Part shown: piece by piece, positions 30,437 through 42,062 of the stretch
How positions within the stretch are numbered: position 1 is the stretch's first letter
Layout: every line of letters begins with the position of its first letter
NCBI RefSeq assembly: GCF_031085175.1
Contig: NZ_JAVHUY010000006.1
Location: forward strand, 186,001 to 250,000
DNA from: Phytohabitans maris
GTDB taxonomy: Bacteria > Actinomycetota > Actinomycetes > Mycobacteriales > Micromonosporaceae
Direction of reading: 5' to 3'
Length of the DNA: 64,000 nucleotides
The notes under the pieces: model-generated
The model's database searches: none
What the model saw: the letters and a program-made list of their open reading frames with translations, nothing else
What the model was told of the DNA's origin: nothing
Translations under genes and position numbers: made by a program

Positions 30437-33400
30437 CTAGAGGGCGAGCACCCGGTCGAGGAAGTCGCGGTACTGCTGCATGGCGACCCGCAGCGCCTCG
30501 GTGTCCGGGGCGTCCGCCTGCCGGCGCGGGTCCAGGTCGACCTGCTCGGCCAGCAGCCGCTCACCCAGCGCGTGCACCGCGCTGGCGACGAGCGCCTGGG
30601 CCTGCGCGACGGCGGCGACCGGATCGTCGACGAAGTTCGCCTTGATCAGCTGCCAGTCCTCGCGGAACCGCTGGGCCGCTTCCTCACTCCAGACCGCGAT
30701 CTGCGTCTCCGCCAGGTCGCCCGGCCCCCGTTGCGTGGCCTCTTCGAGCTCGCCGTGGTGTGCCTCACCCTCACCGAGTACCGCGAGGGCTGCCGGCGCC
30801 CCGACCGCGGCGGCCTCGTCGGCGGCGCTCTGCTCCGCATCGGCGTCGGCGGCCGTCTCGCCGGCTTCCGCTTCGACGGCGCTCTCGTCGGTGGCGGCCG
30901 CGGGCGCGTCGCCGTCGACGGGCGGGACCGTCCAGTCGTGGTCGTCACCGACCGGCGGCGCACTGGCCGTCAGCGGCGCCACGACCGGCTCCGGGTTGGA
31001 CCAGTCCTTGTCCAGAACTCCTGCGGCCGGGGTGACCTCCCGCTCGGCGGTGGCATCTGTCGGTTGAATGATTTCCTCCTCAATGAGTGTCTCGTCGGCC
31101 GCCCGATCCGCCGGCTCCGCCCACGCGTCGGTGACGGCCGCCCCGTTGATGCCGGGTACGACCTCGGCGGGAGCATCAGCAGGCGAAAGCGACCCCGAAG
31201 GCGCGCCGAACGCGCCGACCTCGGCCGGCTGGTCGAGGTCCAGGTCAGGATCAGCGCCGGCGCCGCTCACATCACCGGCGTCGTCTTCCGCGCCGGCGGT
31301 CTCGGCCGCGCCCTCAGCACCGGGGGCCGCCTCGACGTCCGTGCCGGCCCATGCCTCTGCGGCCGCTGCCTCGCTGGCCTCAGCCCCCGCGTCGGTCTCG
31401 GCCGTAGCCACTTCGCCCTCGCCCGCAGCCTCCGCGTCGGCGGCCGCCGCCGTTTCGGGCTCCGCCTCAGGCACCGTCTCGGGCTCCACCTCGGCAACGG
31501 CGCTTGTCGCCGGCGCGCTCTCGGCCTCGGCGGCCCCTGTGTCGCTGTCGCCTTCGGCGGTGTCCTCGACCGCGACCAGCGGCTCAGGCTCCGCTTGAGC
31601 CACAGTCTCGGCGCCGGCGTCCGTCTCGGTCTCCGGCCCGGCCTCGGCGTCGGGCTCGGCTGCCGCAATGGTGTCAGCCTGTGGCGCCGTGTCGACCTCA
31701 GCCTCAGCCCCGACTGCGTCCTCGGCCCCGATGGCGTCCCCGGCCCCGACGGTGGCCTCTGTGTCGAGGGCGTCCTCGGCCTCGACGGTGGCCTCGGCCG
31801 CTGGCTCTGCCTCGGCGGCGGTGTCGGGCTCGGCGGCGATCTCCGTCTCGGGCGCTGCGAGATCCTCCGCGGCGACCGCCTCGGCATCAAGCGCCGCGGG
31901 CTCCTCCTGCGCGACGGCCTCCGCCGCCGGCTCGCCGATCGCGTATGCGCCGTCGATTTCACTGTCCACGGCTGGTTCAGGGTCGCCGGTCGTTTCGCCG
32001 TCCACGGCTGTTTCGGAGTCGACAGCCGCTTCGTCGTCCACGGCGGGCGATGCGGCGAGGCTGGCTTCCGTGTCCACCTCGGACACCGCGCCGGCGTCGG
32101 TCGCCAAGACCGGCTCGGCGTCGACTTCGGACTCCGTCTCCTCTTCCGCTCCTGGTTCAGCTTCCGCTCCTGGCTCAGCGGCAGCCTCCGCGACCTCGGC
32201 GGTTGGGGCGTCGCCGTCCGCCTCCGCGTCGGCGTCGGCTGTCGCATCCGCCTCGGCCTCGGCTTCGGGCGTCGCGTCCGTTTCGAAGTCGGCGTCTGCG
32301 GGCGCGTCCGCTCCGGCGTCCGGGATGACCCCCGCCTCGGCGTCAACGTCCTCAGTGGACTCCCCGGCGGTTGCGATGATCGCGGTCGGCTCTTCCACCT
32401 CGGCTGGCGTCCCGGTCTCGGTGTCCACCGCAGCGTCAGCAGGGGCCTCGGCCTCCGCCTCCGTCACGGCGGCGGTCTCGGCCGCGGGCTCGGTCTCCGC
32501 CGCAGCTTCGGCGTCGTCGGCCGTTTCCACGGCAGGCGCGGTCTCCGCGTCGGCGTCGCTTTCGGTGCCCACCTCGGCTTCGGGTTCCGTGACGGCTGCG
32601 GCCTCCGGCTCGGTCCCGGCGGCCGCTTCAACTTCGGATTCCGCGACGATCTCGGCCCCGACTTCGGCTGCGGCTTCCGGCTGGGACCCGGTGACTTCGG
32701 CTTCGGGCTCGGCCCCGACCTCTGCTCCGGGTCCCGTCTCGGCGGCGGCTTCGGCATCAGGCGCGGCGAGGAGGGCGGGGTCGGCCTGTGGCTCCGCGGG
32801 TGCGTCGCCTTCGGCCTCGCCCGTTGCGGCCTCGCCCGTTGCGGCCTCGCCCGTCTCGGCTTCGGCAGTCTCGTCGATGACGCCCGTCGCGGACTCGCTC
32901 CCCTCCGCTTCGGCCGCCTCTGTGGACGCCGCCTCACCGGAACCGGCCTCGGGGGCGATCCCAGCAGCAGCGTCGACCGCGTCGGCCTCGGCAGCACCGG
33001 TGGTCTCGGTAGCACCGCCATCCACGGCGGTCTCGGCCTCGATGCCGGGCACAGCGCCTGCCTCGGCGTCTGCCTCGACCGGCTCGGCCTGCGCGTCCAC
33101 CACGGCGTCTGCCCCGACCGGCTCGGCCTGCGCGTCCACCACGGCGTCTGCCCCGACCGGCTCAGGCTGCGCGTCCACTGCGGCGTCGGCTGCTGGCTCG
33201 GGCTCGGCGGCTGGCTCGTCCTCGACCTCCGTGGCCGGATCGGCGCCGGCCTCCGGCCGGGTGTCGGCTTCCGGCGGGGCCTCGGCCTCGATCGCGTCGG
33301 CTTCGGCCCCGGCGACGGGGTCCACCTGGGGTGCGGTCGCGACCTCGGCTACCGGCTCCGCGACCGGGTCGGCGTCGTTGTCTGCCGTGGGCTCGGCTGC

Positions 33401-34549
33401 CGCGCTCTCGGCCTCCGGCTCGGCGGCGACCGCGTCGATGGTGGCGTCGAGAGCCGGCGGGGTGCCGTCGGTGGCGGGCTCGGTGGGTGTCTCGGCGACC
33501 GCGTCGGACTCGGGAGTCGGCGCGTCGGGCTCGGCGTCCGTTTCCAGGTCCGGCGCCGCGTCCACCATGACAACCGCCTCGGGCGTTTCCACCTCGGCCT
33601 CCGGCTCGGCGGTCGGGGCCTCGGCGTCCGAACCAATGGCGTCCGCGACGTCCGTGTCAGGGGCCGCTGCTTCGGCGTCCGCCGGCGCCTCCGGCTCCAG
33701 CATCACCTCAGCCTCCGCCTCGGCCTCAGCCTCGACGGTGGAGACGGCGTCCGCTTCGGGCGCGGAGGCGGCGTCGGCCTCGGGCGCGGCCTCGATGATG
33801 GAGGCGGCCTCCGCCTCGGGCGCGGCCTCAACGGCGGAGACGGGGTCCGCCTCGGGCTCGGCCTCGATGATGGAGGCGGCGTCCGCCTCAGGCGCGCGGA
33901 CGGGGTCGGCTTCGGGCGCGGCCTCGATGATGGAGGCGGCGTCCGCCTCGGGCGCGGGGACGGCGTCCGTTTCGGGTGCGGAAACGGGGTCGGCTTCGGG
34001 CTCGGCCTCGACGGTGGAGGCGGCGTCCGCCTCGGGTGCGGAGACGAGGTCGGCCTCGGGCTCAGCCTCGACGGTGGAGGCGGCGTCCGCCTCGGGCGCG
34101 GGGACGGGGTCGGCTTCGGGCTTGGCCTCGACGATGGGAGCGCCGGGAGCGGAGGTGGCGTCCGCCTCCGTGGTGGAGGGTGGGGCTTCGGGGGTGGCGG
34201 CGTCAGGGGCCGCGGGGGTGTCGTACGGGGCGGGCGGGGCCGAAGGCGGAGTGGAGGAGTCGATCAGCTGGTCGGTGAGCGGGGGGAGGGGGGACTCCTG
34301 GGCCCGTTCGCGCGGGACGATGATCGGGATCTCCGTCGTCGGCTCGTTGAGAGCGGTGGTACCCGAGGGGAGAGCGGTGGTACCCGAGGGGGCGGTGGTG
34401 GTTTCCCCCGGGGGGAGGGCCGTGGTCGGCTCCGCGGAGAGGTCGGAGGGCTGGCGCTGACCGGGCAGCAGCCCGGCGGGTATCACGGGGAGTGCCGCGG
34501 TGGTCTCGGTGTCGTCGTGCTCGGAACCTGGCGTGGGGGTGGGCTGCAT
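30437..34549 (-). CDS. Giant ultra-acidic Ala/Glu/Asp/Pro-rich repeat protein
   Basis: A 1370-residue protein from ATG 34549. Residues 1-80 are rich in Thr/Pro with [15 protein letters not shown] repeats. About 1000 residues of low complexity follow, built from units such as [14 protein letters not shown] and [13 protein letters not shown]. Only three Lys occur in the whole protein and very few Arg lie in the repeat region. The C-terminal 90 residues are different: a helical domain with [20 protein letters not shown] and [19 protein letters not shown], of a type seen at the end of other actinobacterial proteins. No signal peptide or membrane segment is visible. It could be a scaffold or an extended spacer; the function is unknown. 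Confidence 0.75.
33077..33185. repeat. 39-bp tandem repeat within the acidic-protein gene
   Basis: Units start at 33077, 33116 and 33155 and begin GACCGGCTCGGCCTGCGCGT. The period is 13 codons. Copies one and two differ at only one or two bases, so this part duplicated recently, while most other repeats in the gene have diverged. Confidence 0.7.

Positions 34550-38673: not shown

Positions 38674-38677
<4 letters not shown>
37808..38677 (+). CDS. trpC: Indole-3-glycerol phosphate synthase
   Basis: TrpC closes the indole ring from CdRP. The catalytic Lys is in [13 protein letters not shown], with further motifs [24 protein letters not shown] and [14 protein letters not shown]. The barrel begins at [16 protein letters not shown] 37808 has a strong GGGGAG site 8 bases upstream and gives 289 residues with a 21-residue N-terminal extension; GTG 37873 would give the standard length. 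The stop overlaps the trpB start. Confidence 0.95.
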
Positions 38678-39890
<1,213 letters not shown>

Positions 39891-39894
<4 letters not shown>

Positions 39895-40010
39895 GCGCGC
39901 GCGGCGCTCTCGGCGCGTCACGCCCGCGCGGCGAAGCGAGGACGGGCGTGAGCGAGCGCGGCGCTCTCGGCGCATCGCGCCCGCGCGCGGTGAAGCGAGG
40001 ACGGGCGTGA
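39891..40010 (+). CDS. Mini-ORF 1 between trpB and trpA (39 residues)
   Basis: GTG 39891 overlaps the trpB TGA (GTGA). The frame crosses the first two tandem units and ends at TGA 40008-40010, which overlaps the GTG of mini-ORF 2. The peptide is basic ([18 protein letters not shown]). It probably exists because of the repeat structure; translation through it would carry ribosomes towards trpA. Confidence 0.35.
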
Positions 40011-40086
40011 GCGAGCGCAGCGAGCGAATCATCAAGCAGAGGGCGCTTGGAGCCTCGCGCCCGCCCGCGGCGAAGCGAGGACGGGC
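39891..40086 (+). repeat. Three tandem units between trpB and trpA, each ending in a ribosome binding site
   Basis: Units run 39891-39947 (57 bp), 39948-40006 (59 bp) and 40007-40086 (80 bp). Each starts GTGAGCG and ends GCGAGGACGGGC, directly before the next GTG. The last copy of that ending is the ribosome binding site of trpA. The first two units share GGCGCTCTCGGCGC. The third has an insertion containing AATCATCAAGCAGAGGGCGC. Confidence 0.8.
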
Positions 40087-40090
40087 GTGA
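40007..40090 (+). CDS. Mini-ORF 2 between trpB and trpA (27 residues)
   Basis: GTG 40007 is preceded by GCGAGGACGGGC and overlaps the stop of mini-ORF 1. It ends at TGA 40088-40090, inside the GTGA that starts trpA. The peptide begins [14 protein letters not shown], basic and without a recognisable domain. The exact overlaps at both ends suggest translational relay. Confidence 0.35.
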   Translation: MSERSERIIKQRALGASRPPAAKRGRA

Positions 40091-40887
40091 GCGTCACCGA
40101 GGTCTTCGAAAAGGCGCGCGCCGAGGGGCGGGCGGTGGCGATCGGGTGCATGCCGGCCGGCTTCCCGACCGTGGAGGGCAGCATCGCCGCGATGGTCGCG
40201 ATGGCCGAGGCGGGCATCGACGTGATCGAGGTCGAGCTGCCCTACTCCGACCCGGTCATGGACGGCCCCGTGATCCAGAAGGCCAGCGACATCGCGCTCG
40301 CCGGCGGCGTACGCACCCGGGACACGCTGCGCGCCATCGAGGCGGTCGCCCGCACCGGCGTACCGGTGGTGCTGATGACGTACTGGAACCCGATCGAGCG
40401 GTACGGCGTCGACGCCTTCGCCCGTGACCTCGCCGCCGCCGGGGGCGCCGGGCTCATCACGCCCGACCTCATCCCGGACGAGGCGGAGGAGTGGCTGGCG
40501 GCGTCGGACGCGCACCAGCTCGACCGCACGTTTCTCGTCTCGCCCTCGTCGACCGACCAGCGGCTCGCGATGACCGTGGCCAACTGCCGCGGCTTCGTCT
40601 ACGCGACCGCCGTCATGGGCGTCACGGGCGCCCGCGAGCAGACGTCGGCCGCGGCGCCCGCGCTGGTCGCCCGCGTCCGGGCGGTCACCGACCTGCCGGT
40701 CGGCGTGGGCTTGGGGGTACGCGACGGCGCGCAGGCCGCCGAGGTCGGCTCGTTCGCCGACGGGGTGATCGTGGGCAGCGCCCTGGTCCGCTGCGTGCTG
40801 GAGGCGCCCGACGAGGCCGCCGGGCTGGCGTCGCTGCGCGCGCTCAGCGCCGACCTGGCCCGCGGCGTGCGGGCGGTCACACGCTGA
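40087..40887 (+). CDS. trpA: Tryptophan synthase alpha chain
   Basis: TrpA (266 residues) cleaves indole glycerol phosphate and passes indole to TrpB. Catalytic Glu and Asp are in IEVELPYSDPVMDGPVIQ. Further motifs are MTYWNPIERYG, GLITPDLIPDEAEEW, and the phosphate-binding GVGLGVRDGAQA. The start is GTG 40087; the upstream copies of the same GTG context belong to mini-ORFs. Its 3' end overlaps the convergent PIN-domain gene by 11 bp. Confidence 0.95.
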   Translation: MSVTEVFEKARAEGRAVAIGCMPAGFPTVEGSIAAMVAMAEAGIDVIEVELPYSDPVMDGPVIQKASDIALAGGVRTRDTLRAIEAVARTGVPVVLMTYWNPIERYGVDAFARDLAAAGGAGLITPDLIPDEAEEWLAASDAHQLDRTFLVSPSSTDQRLAMTVANCRGFVYATAVMGVTGAREQTSAAAPALVARVRAVTDLPVGVGLGVRDGAQAAEVGSFADGVIVGSALVRCVLEAPDEAAGLASLRALSADLARGVRAVTR

Positions 40888-41248
40888 GCAGCGCCACGTC
40901 GTACTTGTGGATGTGCTCGTCGCGGGTCACGAGCGTCATGCCTTCGCACTGGGCCTGCGCCACTAGCATCCGGTCGAAGGGATCGCGATGGATCTCCGGC
41001 AGCCGCCCGGCGGCGATGGCGTGGTCCATGGTGATCGGTAGCGGCCGGAAGCCGGCATCCCGCACGCGCTCAGGCAGATCGGTGGGCCCCAGCTTGCCGA
41101 GCGCCTGCTTGATGGAGACCTCCCAGAGCGTCGCCGTGCTCACGTAGGCATCGGGCTCCGCGTCGAGGACGTGCTTGACGTCGTCGGCAAGGGTGGGATC
41201 GTCGGCCAGCCACCAGAGGACGACGTGGGTGTCGAGGAGCACCCTCAT
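40877..41248 (-). CDS. PIN-domain toxin (VapC type)
   Basis: A 123-residue PIN-domain ribonuclease. The acidic residues of the active site are in LLDTHVVLWWLADDP (first Asp), ATLWEVSIK (Glu) and HRDPFDRMLVAQA (Asp), with LVTRDEHI at the end. VapC toxins cut tRNA or rRNA when released from the antitoxin. The ATG at 41248 overlaps the antitoxin stop. The pair lies between trpA and a NUDIX gene, an accessory insertion into an otherwise conserved block. Confidence 0.9.
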   Translation of the reverse strand: MRVLLDTHVVLWWLADDPTLADDVKHVLDAEPDAYVSTATLWEVSIKQALGKLGPTDLPERVRDAGFRPLPITMDHAIAAGRLPEIHRDPFDRMLVAQAQCEGMTLVTRDEHIHKYDVALLSV

Positions 41249-41502
41249 AGTGAGGTCTCGAACTCGTCTGCGAGGATCTTGTTGGTCGCGTCGGAGTCCC
41301 AATCCTCGGTCATCACCAACCGCCCGCGCAGCGACCCGCGACCGACGCGGTGGACCCCGCGCGTCAGCGGAACTACCTTCGCCACCGGCCGGCCGGCCCG
41401 GCTGATGATTACCTCTTCGCCACGCTCGACCCGCTCGATGATCCGGGAGAGGTTGGTCTTGGCGTCATGGATGTTGAACTGCGGCGCGGGCTCGCGCGAC
41501 AT
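41245..41502 (-). CDS. Phd/YefM-family antitoxin
   Basis: An 85-residue antitoxin. FNIHDAKTNLSRIIERVERG and EEVIISRAGRPVAKVVPL form the DNA-binding Phd/YefM fold. The C terminus (TEDWDSDATNKILADEFETS) is the toxin-binding tail. It is upstream of and overlaps the PIN toxin gene. ATG 41502 is 3 bases from a 22-bp palindrome that includes its ribosome binding site. Confidence 0.9.
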   Translation of the reverse strand: MSREPAPQFNIHDAKTNLSRIIERVERGEEVIISRAGRPVAKVVPLTRGVHRVGRGSLRGRLVMTEDWDSDATNKILADEFETSL

Positions 41503-41505
41503 CTG

Positions 41506-41527
41506 AACCTCCTTAGCTAAGGAGGTT
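41506..41527. promoter_or_regulatory. 22-bp perfect palindrome covering the antitoxin ribosome binding site
   Basis: The palindrome reads AACCTCCTTAG followed by its exact reverse complement CTAAGGAGGTT. On the minus strand the right half provides AAGGAGG, a near-perfect ribosome binding site, close to ATG 41502. It is the obvious operator for antitoxin autoregulation, and an RNA copy could fold to hide the binding site. Confidence 0.65.
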
Positions 41528-41567
41528 AGTCTACCCCCGCTCGAGGGGTAAAAGTAAGGCGCCCCGT

Positions 41568-42062
41568 TCAGCTGGCGGCCACCGCGAGCGGCTCGGGCTC
41601 GGCCGCGTCCGGGATCTCCGGCTCGCTGTCGCGCTCGACGTGGCGCAGCACGCCGGAGCGGCCGGCCACGGCGTCCGCGATCGCCGCGCGGGCGACCGGC
41701 GTCATCGGGCCGGGCAGCGCCTCGGGGTCGTGCCACGACAGCCAGCAGATCCGGCCGGGCGAGTTGACGCTCGCCTCGCCGCCGTCGATCTGCCCGCGGA
41801 AGACGTACTTGAGCACGTCGGGCATGTCCTCACCGCAGGCGTCGCCGGTCAGCTGGTAGATGCCGACGACGTCGACCATGTGGGTCTCCAGGCCGGTCTC
41901 CTCGCGGATGTCGCGGATCGCCGCGTGGACCGGGCTCTCGGCCTGGCGGATGCGACCGCCGGGCAGGCACCAGAGCCGGTGCCCCTGACTTTGCTGGCAG
42001 AGCAGCACGCGGCCAGCGGCGTCGGTGATGACGGCGGCGACCGCGGAGGTCAAAGAGCTCAT
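41568..42062 (-). CDS. NUDIX hydrolase
   Basis: A 164-residue hydrolase of nucleoside diphosphate derivatives. The NUDIX box is complete: GGRIRQAESPVHAAIRDI followed by REETGLE, with the metal-binding Glu residues in place. It starts MSSLTSAVAAVITDAAGRVL. The C-terminal 25 residues are acidic and variable. Substrate cannot be told. It is divergent from lgt, with 119 bp between the start codons. Confidence 0.9.
   Translation of the reverse strand: MSSLTSAVAAVITDAAGRVLLCQQSQGHRLWCLPGGRIRQAESPVHAAIRDIREETGLETHMVDVVGIYQLTGDACGEDMPDVLKYVFRGQIDGGEASVNSPGRICWLSWHDPEALPGPMTPVARAAIADAVAGRSGVLRHVERDSEPEIPDAAEPEPLAVAAS

Follow-up and report, generated by a model that had tools for sequence, protein, structure and literature searches.

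The trpB-trpA spacer of Phytohabitans maris is very probably an array of three MIRU-type elements inserted at a start codon

The DNA under study, hereafter the window, is a stretch of 64,000 nucleotides from Phytohabitans maris (contig NZ_JAVHUY010000006.1, positions 186,001 to 250,000 of the forward strand), in which a spacer separates the two tryptophan synthase genes (Table 1). The Pfam analysis of the trpB product evidenced the PALP-fold enzyme expected for TrpB. From trpB to trpA the open reading frames follow each other through overlaps: the GTG at 39891 overlaps the trpB stop TGA (39892-39894), the stop of mini-ORF A (40008-40010) overlaps the GTG at 40007, and that of mini-ORF B (40088-40090) overlaps the trpA GTG at 40087. 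At the level of the DNA the spacer contains three repeat units, at spacings of 59 and 80, whose end, GCGAAGCGAGGACGGGCGTGAGCG, occurs three times in the window when up to three mismatches are allowed, compared to 0.00 expected from 100 shuffles. Compared with the 80-nt form, unit 2 lacks 21 nt and stays in phase, and unit 1 lacks 23 nt and continues in frame into unit 2, the two jointly amounting to 116 nt, which is again 2 mod 3. As unit 1 has 57 nt, the GTG at 39948 falls in frame with mini-ORF A, and three units thus result in two mini-ORFs.

Table 1. Features of the trpB-trpA region, in window coordinates.
Feature	Position	Strand	Remarks
trpB (tryptophan synthase beta)	38674..39894	+	TGA stop 39892-39894; Pfam PALP, E 8.7e-42
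Host GTGA (insertion target)	39891..39894	+	trpB stop and probable ancestral trpA start, from the overlaps in relatives
Mini-ORF A	39891..40010	+	39 codons, through units 1 and 2; 3' part of a longer open frame, 39636-40010
Unit 1, shortened copy	39895..39951	+	57 nt net; own terminal GTGA 39948-39951; SD-like GAGGA 39938-39942
Unit 2, shortened copy	39952..40010	+	59 nt net; terminal GTGA 40007-40010; SD-like GAGGA 39997-40001
Mini-ORF B	40007..40090	+	27 codons
Left hairpin of unit 3	40007..40029	+	covarying columns 1-23 and 5-19; putative fold, not shown by energy folding of the unit
Unit 3, full 80-nt copy	40011..40090	+	terminal GTGA 40087-40090; SD-like GAGGA 40077-40081
Right hairpin of unit 3	40055..40090	+	covariation; trpA start in the stem, GAGGA in the loop and 3' arm
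trpA (tryptophan synthase alpha)	40087..40887	+	Pfam Trp_syntA, E 2.1e-68

Comparison of sequences within and between genomes evidences that the units of the trp spacer are copies of a dispersed element of about 80 bp. The 22-mer of the unit end, with up to three mismatches, has 71 matches in the 9.87-Mb genome and none in the reversed control, and tandem copies at 80 bp are also found elsewhere in it. A right-end pattern (up to two mismatches) yields 86 matches in P. maris and 43, 19, 9, 4 and 1 in five congeners; since the reversed controls give 0 or 1 match in each of the six genomes, the lone match in the last congener is no evidence of the element there. The junction counts given below rest on 74 right ends, fewer than these 86, obtained from 75 pattern matches by leaving out C56:223653, a right end with no start codon, and they are not independent, as copies within one genome are related. 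The left motif, RTGAGCGAGCGNAGCGAGCGAAYCAT, was found in 58 of 200 genomes of the family, corresponding to 14 of 44 genera, the reversed control being 0 among the matches listed. In a further scan, by organism name, the motif was found in at least 115 stretches, 80 of them named, in Micromonospora, Catellatospora, Plantactinospora, Nocardia, Nocardioides, Kitasatospora, Streptomyces, Nonomuraea, Kribbella, Aeromicrobium and others. The element mostly measures 65-80 nt. Searching unit 3 against plasmid and phage sequence collections gave no match at E 1e-5 in either. In another genus of the family, the trpA start (L091, around 1480-1500) reads ATGAGCGAGCGAAGCGGC, which looks like what remains of the left end of this element, again at trpA.

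The original prediction had described two mini-ORFs between trpB and trpA, with three units and three GTGA junctions, all borne out by the ORF and repeat readings, and had derived them from a local tandem duplication of the trpB-trpA junction, with the frames kept open by the balance between TrpA and TrpB. Three tandem units at spacings of 59 and 80 agree with such an origin, as does the direct trpB-trpA overlap of relatives. Indeed, the ancestral direct overlap which it presumed is very probable: having read 29 trpA loci of other genomes (L071 and L073 placed by eye), the seven closest in detail, we observed a direct trpB-trpA overlap in all seven, through RTGA in six cases and TGATG in one. 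However, the element is absent from these seven junctions, so that they hold no unit to duplicate, whereas the same unit is dispersed across the genome and congeners and also stands before unrelated genes. Genome-wide dispersal and element-free trp junctions thus led us to reject junction duplication as the origin of the units, which is extremely improbable, although local duplication may well have raised the copy number within the array.

Insertion of a dispersed element at GTGA agrees with the other sites of P. maris, 26 of which were each set against as many as four congeners. The element was missing from at least one congener at 25 or more of these sites (slot 12 being ambiguous), and at 10 the element or a remnant of it was present in at least one congener. 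Clean joins read as host sequence up to RTGA, then the element ending in RTGA, then the gene. The NTG differs between the left and right ends in ten own copies, nine of which were compared with relatives: their start codon equals the left NTG unanimously at six sites, is mixed at three, and equals the right one unanimously at none. The relatives' start codons thus follow the left NTG, which indicates that the host very probably contributes the left RTGA and the element the right one. Among the 74 own copies the right tetranucleotide is ATGA in 48, GTGA in 24, and TTGA and GTGG in one each. Insertion at RTGA starts in the orientation of the gene, as indicated by the empty sites, agrees with the criterion of DTGA sites and gene orientation that Supply et al. 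reportedly described in 1997 for MIRU insertion. At the orthologue of own site C9:84078 (L355, G002), one congener has three tandem right ends, P. maris has one and two congeners have none, a difference in repeat number that is like MIRU-VNTR; mycobacterial MIRU copies serve as typing markers.

The length of the element obeys a phase rule. The left end was recognisable for 70 of the 74 own right ends, and the net length is 2 mod 3 in 65 of these as first anchored, or in 67 when the true left end of the C27 pair (80 nt) is considered, the exceptions having 57 nt (trp unit 1), 81 nt and 82 nt. In the 81-nt copy the RTGA is changed to GTGG, which would give an N-terminal extension. In other genomes the same phase was observed in 99 of 104 copies whose right end was defined without regard to frame, 40 of the 144 copies having no recognisable right core and lying outside this set. 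With a net length of 2 mod 3, a mini-ORF begins at the old start and its stop overlaps the new one. The 65 copies have no in-frame stop, and stops occur in all 65 in frame +1 and in 20 in frame +2; open mini-ORFs by themselves say little in GC-rich DNA, as even frame +2 is interrupted in only these 20. As to the gene starts, in 131 of 167 copies the first stop in frame 0 overlaps an RTGA that begins an ORF with a minimum of 60 codons, in comparison to 12 and 10 copies in the other two frames and 95 of 1348 control RTGAGC sites, after leaving out duplicates and copies with less than 400 nt downstream. The non-passing copies comprise 19 with short ORFs and 17 with long ones, and at least half of the 19 result from the next unit coming directly after. 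All 74 own right ends precede an ORF, which is the next unit in 13 cases and an ORF of 52-653 codons in 61. Of ten downstream proteins sampled, seven have a Pfam match, their functions being unrelated, and the downstream genes include SecD/SecF-type, acetyl-CoA-synthetase-type and ABC transporter genes. Because the 2-mod-3, RTGA-to-RTGA design precedes unrelated genes, it is a property of the element.

At the right end, TCRYG pairs with the terminal CRTGA, which results in the new start codon being placed inside a stem. In a 13-pair helix aligned over 62 sequences, nine pairs have changes on both sides, and the cells with double-sided changes amount to 80, compared to 24.6 in shuffles and 13-25 in slid controls; these sequences were chosen by their best stem offset (30; 63 found, one clear misfit removed), which inflates the pairing. 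Offsets 29 and 30 together account for 146 of 186 elements. Opposite the U of the start codon we find G in 88 and A in 96 of the 186, and a G in this position forms a G-U pair on the sense strand, which is acceptable there, but a mismatch on the other strand. Against the reading as a sense-strand RNA stands the position opposite the start-codon R, where C-A mismatches outnumber U-G wobbles (12 versus 4 among the 186). As to the fold energy, unit 3 is better than its shuffles (z -2.14) with the right hairpin present, and units 1 and 2 are no better than theirs (z -0.14 and 0.32) and are uninformative.

A covarying hairpin at the start codon, an adjoining SD-like GAGGA and an overlapping mini-ORF are also what a conserved, gene-specific cis-regulatory RNA would have, composed of an upstream ORF and a start-codon hairpin and involving no mobile element. 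This is nevertheless very unlikely, as presence varies at the same gene among close relatives (the 25 or more of 26 sites with an element-free congener), the sampled downstream genes are functionally unrelated, and a Rfam search of window positions 39700-40300 (601 bases) retrieved no family above its gathering score, the two matches obtained lying far below theirs. A regulatory effect that follows insertion is possible.

The design of the dispersed element has a counterpart in mycobacteria. Passages of a 2025 review describe MIRUs as apparently mobile repeats that insert at start codons and carry an internal ORF coupled at -4 nt (PMC12548453). Like these, the present element is a short dispersed repeat at start codons, with tandem copies and an internal ORF that overlaps the downstream start by 4 nt. 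Judged on the MIRU-like repeats of PPE-bearing genomes, which have 53 nt, the two also have in common a 2-mod-3 phase and a right-end core, AGCGMAGCGAKGAG...RTGA. The common plan and right-end core make the element MIRU-type by plan and probably, in part, by sequence. There are differences as well: it mostly has 65-80 nt, whereas the MIRU-like repeats have 53; the left halves differ, that of the present element containing the covarying bases described below; and its host range lies far outside mycobacteria. The pairing of the right hairpin with the start codon is a feature of the present element, known from its non-mycobacterial copies. An order-level pattern, AGCGMAGCGAKGASN{3,16}RTGA, matched at most 65 of 200 genomes, an upper bound because some were matched only by apparent coding DNA common to relatives, with four matches in the reversed control. 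In one genus (g39), 20 of 21 genomes have PPE matches and 10 of 21 have the order-level pattern; the copies mostly read AGCGMAGCGATGAGGAGGAG..., one genome contains two tandem pairs at 53 bp, and an in-frame start lies 53 nt upstream in 16 of the 23 rows read, from three genomes.

Taken as a whole, we consider it very likely that three MIRU-type elements, inserted in tandem at a start codon, make up the trpB-trpA spacer, and such an insertion would bring a coupled mini-ORF and a new start. The element would enter in gene orientation, directly 3' of an RTGA made up of the start codon of the gene and the base after it, and its 3' end would supply an SD-like GAGGA and its own terminal RTGA. The old start, together with the old ribosome site or the upstream coupling, would now begin the mini-ORF, which has 27 codons for an 80-nt element and whose TGA would overlap the new start codon. 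Ribosomes translating the mini-ORF would likely open the start-codon hairpin, terminate at RTGA and then start again on the gene, so that the invaded gene would probably stay translatable. At the trp locus, a relay from trpB through mini-ORFs A and B to trpA would replace the direct overlap. The layout therefore suits termination-reinitiation, as the original prediction had proposed in coupling the genes through the mini-ORFs; its further proposal that selection specific to TrpA and TrpB keeps the frames open does not fit the same 2-mod-3, RTGA-to-RTGA design before unrelated genes, and as an interpretation it is partly supported. Short ORFs whose stop overlaps the next start are the basis of bicistronic designs and of coupling by upstream ORFs; the likeness lies in this overlap, the difference in that there it belongs to a gene-specific leader and here to a dispersed element. 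The general idea that such an ORF can offset mRNA structure is expressed in the same 2025 review (PMC12548453). Compatibility of insertion with translation is likewise a trait of the present element in common with others, such as those of Rickettsia. The Rickettsia palindromic elements are in-frame repeats inside coding sequences; unlike them, the present element lies at start codons and would restart translation.

A distinct set of covarying positions was observed at the left end, between the probable host base of the target (column 1, the R of RTGA) and an internal base (column 23). In 144 distinct elements of up to 110 nt the combinations are A-T in 92, G-C in 47, G-T in 4 and A-C in 1, being concordant in 139. 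Columns 1 and 23 are the top pair by corrected mutual information over 102 distinct 80-nt copies, and among elements with different start codons at the two ends, column 23 agrees with that on the left in 18 of 20 cases. In the own genome, 58 of 66 rows were readable (in the other 8 a G at the Y position indicates that the pattern matched the wrong place), with 51 concordant, 4 G-T and 3 A-C; in its 9-nt-shorter form the two bases match in 15 of 18 copies. Unit 3 of the trp spacer, with R=G and Y=T, is among the few G-T wobble cases. Columns 5 and 19 change together in 3 of 23 distinct own ends, a result that rests on the own genome, since elsewhere the left motif was found by an exact pattern in which only columns 1, 12 and 23 could vary. 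As 1-23 and 5-19 lie on one antiparallel register (i+j=24), they suggest a hairpin, RT(GA)GC(GA)GC(GNA)GC(GA)GC(GA)AY, in which Watson-Crick pairs would alternate with tandem G-A and the loop would be GNA, a type of loop with special stability.

Part of this association is inherited, as most nearest neighbours are of the same type (74 of 102; 56 A-T and 18 G-C). Descent from two ancient subfamilies is nevertheless the less likely explanation of the covariation: in a tree of the 102 elements calculated with these columns left out, 15 branches have a change of R and 13 a change of Y, nine being common to both, whereas 500 label shuffles gave a mean of 1.74 and a maximum of 6, counts to be weighed with the shortness of the sequences from which the tree was built. 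In fact, near-identical copies differ at both positions. The match between the left target and a putative internal guide comes down to one variable base, which is no proof of guiding, and it would reflect either choice of the site by pairing or co-adaptation after insertion.

A base that covaries with its target recalls the IS200/IS605 group. For IS608, one paper describes insertion 3' of a tetranucleotide kept on the left flank, a guide 5' of the hairpin and a terminal right cleavage sequence (PMC5934647). A non-autonomous element of the IS200/IS605 or REP-like kind, for which a Y1 (HUH) transposase would recognise RTGA as the target through GAAY as the guide, would explain this same geometry, with hairpins near both ends, the target kept on the left flank and an internal base complementary to the target base, as in IS608 and REP/RAYT systems. 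Yet we regard it as unlikely. The profile of the Y1 transposase, PF01797, had no match in the six Phytohabitans genomes, the one with 86 matches of the right-end pattern included, and matched only 52 of 200 genomes of the family (in both cases drafts, 89-98% complete); in the absence of PF01797 from the genus genomes, the element is not filed under IS200/IS605. Furthermore, the own copies stand at gene starts in gene orientation, for which a 4-nt target alone falls short as an explanation, and unlike IS200/IS605 and REP/RAYT elements the present one, too short for a transposase gene, inserts at start codons.

Returning to the MIRU-type reading, it may be, although we put this forward only tentatively and with more doubt than confidence, that a widespread actinobacterial class of these elements picks start codons by pairing, through a hairpin of Watson-Crick and sheared G-A pairs between its internal GAAY and the host RTGA, then restores the start codon, ribosome site and coupled frame, and is moved by a non-Y1 enzyme. 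If true, the class would represent mobile elements that are guided by nucleic acid and specialised for translation starts. In the openly accessible literature, subscription papers being mostly beyond this scope and the evidence therefore weak, we found no report, judged by titles and the beginnings of abstracts, of such elements outside mycobacteria, nor, within the same scope, of a guide or a start-codon hairpin for MIRUs. What appears new, on the basis of sequence comparison, is the spread far outside mycobacteria, the covarying start-codon hairpin and the covariation of the host start with an internal base.

These observations extend MIRU-type elements to many actinobacterial genera and provide an exact insertion rule, with the host RTGA on the left, that of the element on the right and a net length of 2 mod 3, which makes both the movement of the element and the sparing of the invaded gene testable questions. 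They also carry a warning for annotation, as N-termini of the type 'MSERSER...' and mini-ORFs can be parts of the element and nearby start codons are easily mis-called. Ten left ends (L163, L183, L187, L197, L205, L211, L219, L239, L240 and L265), for which no right end was read, continue in frame into ORFs that exceed 200 codons, as if the proteins began with MSERSER.

Some further features of the window were recorded. Directly downstream of trpA, on the minus strand at 40877-41736, lie PIN-domain toxin-like and Phd/YefM-type antitoxin-like genes. Positions 31600-34200 contain dense imperfect tandem repeats with periods of 6-144, which suggests a gene for a repetitive low-complexity protein, and at 2575-2659 a long G-rich run is followed by alternating runs of G and C, possibly an oddity of the assembly.
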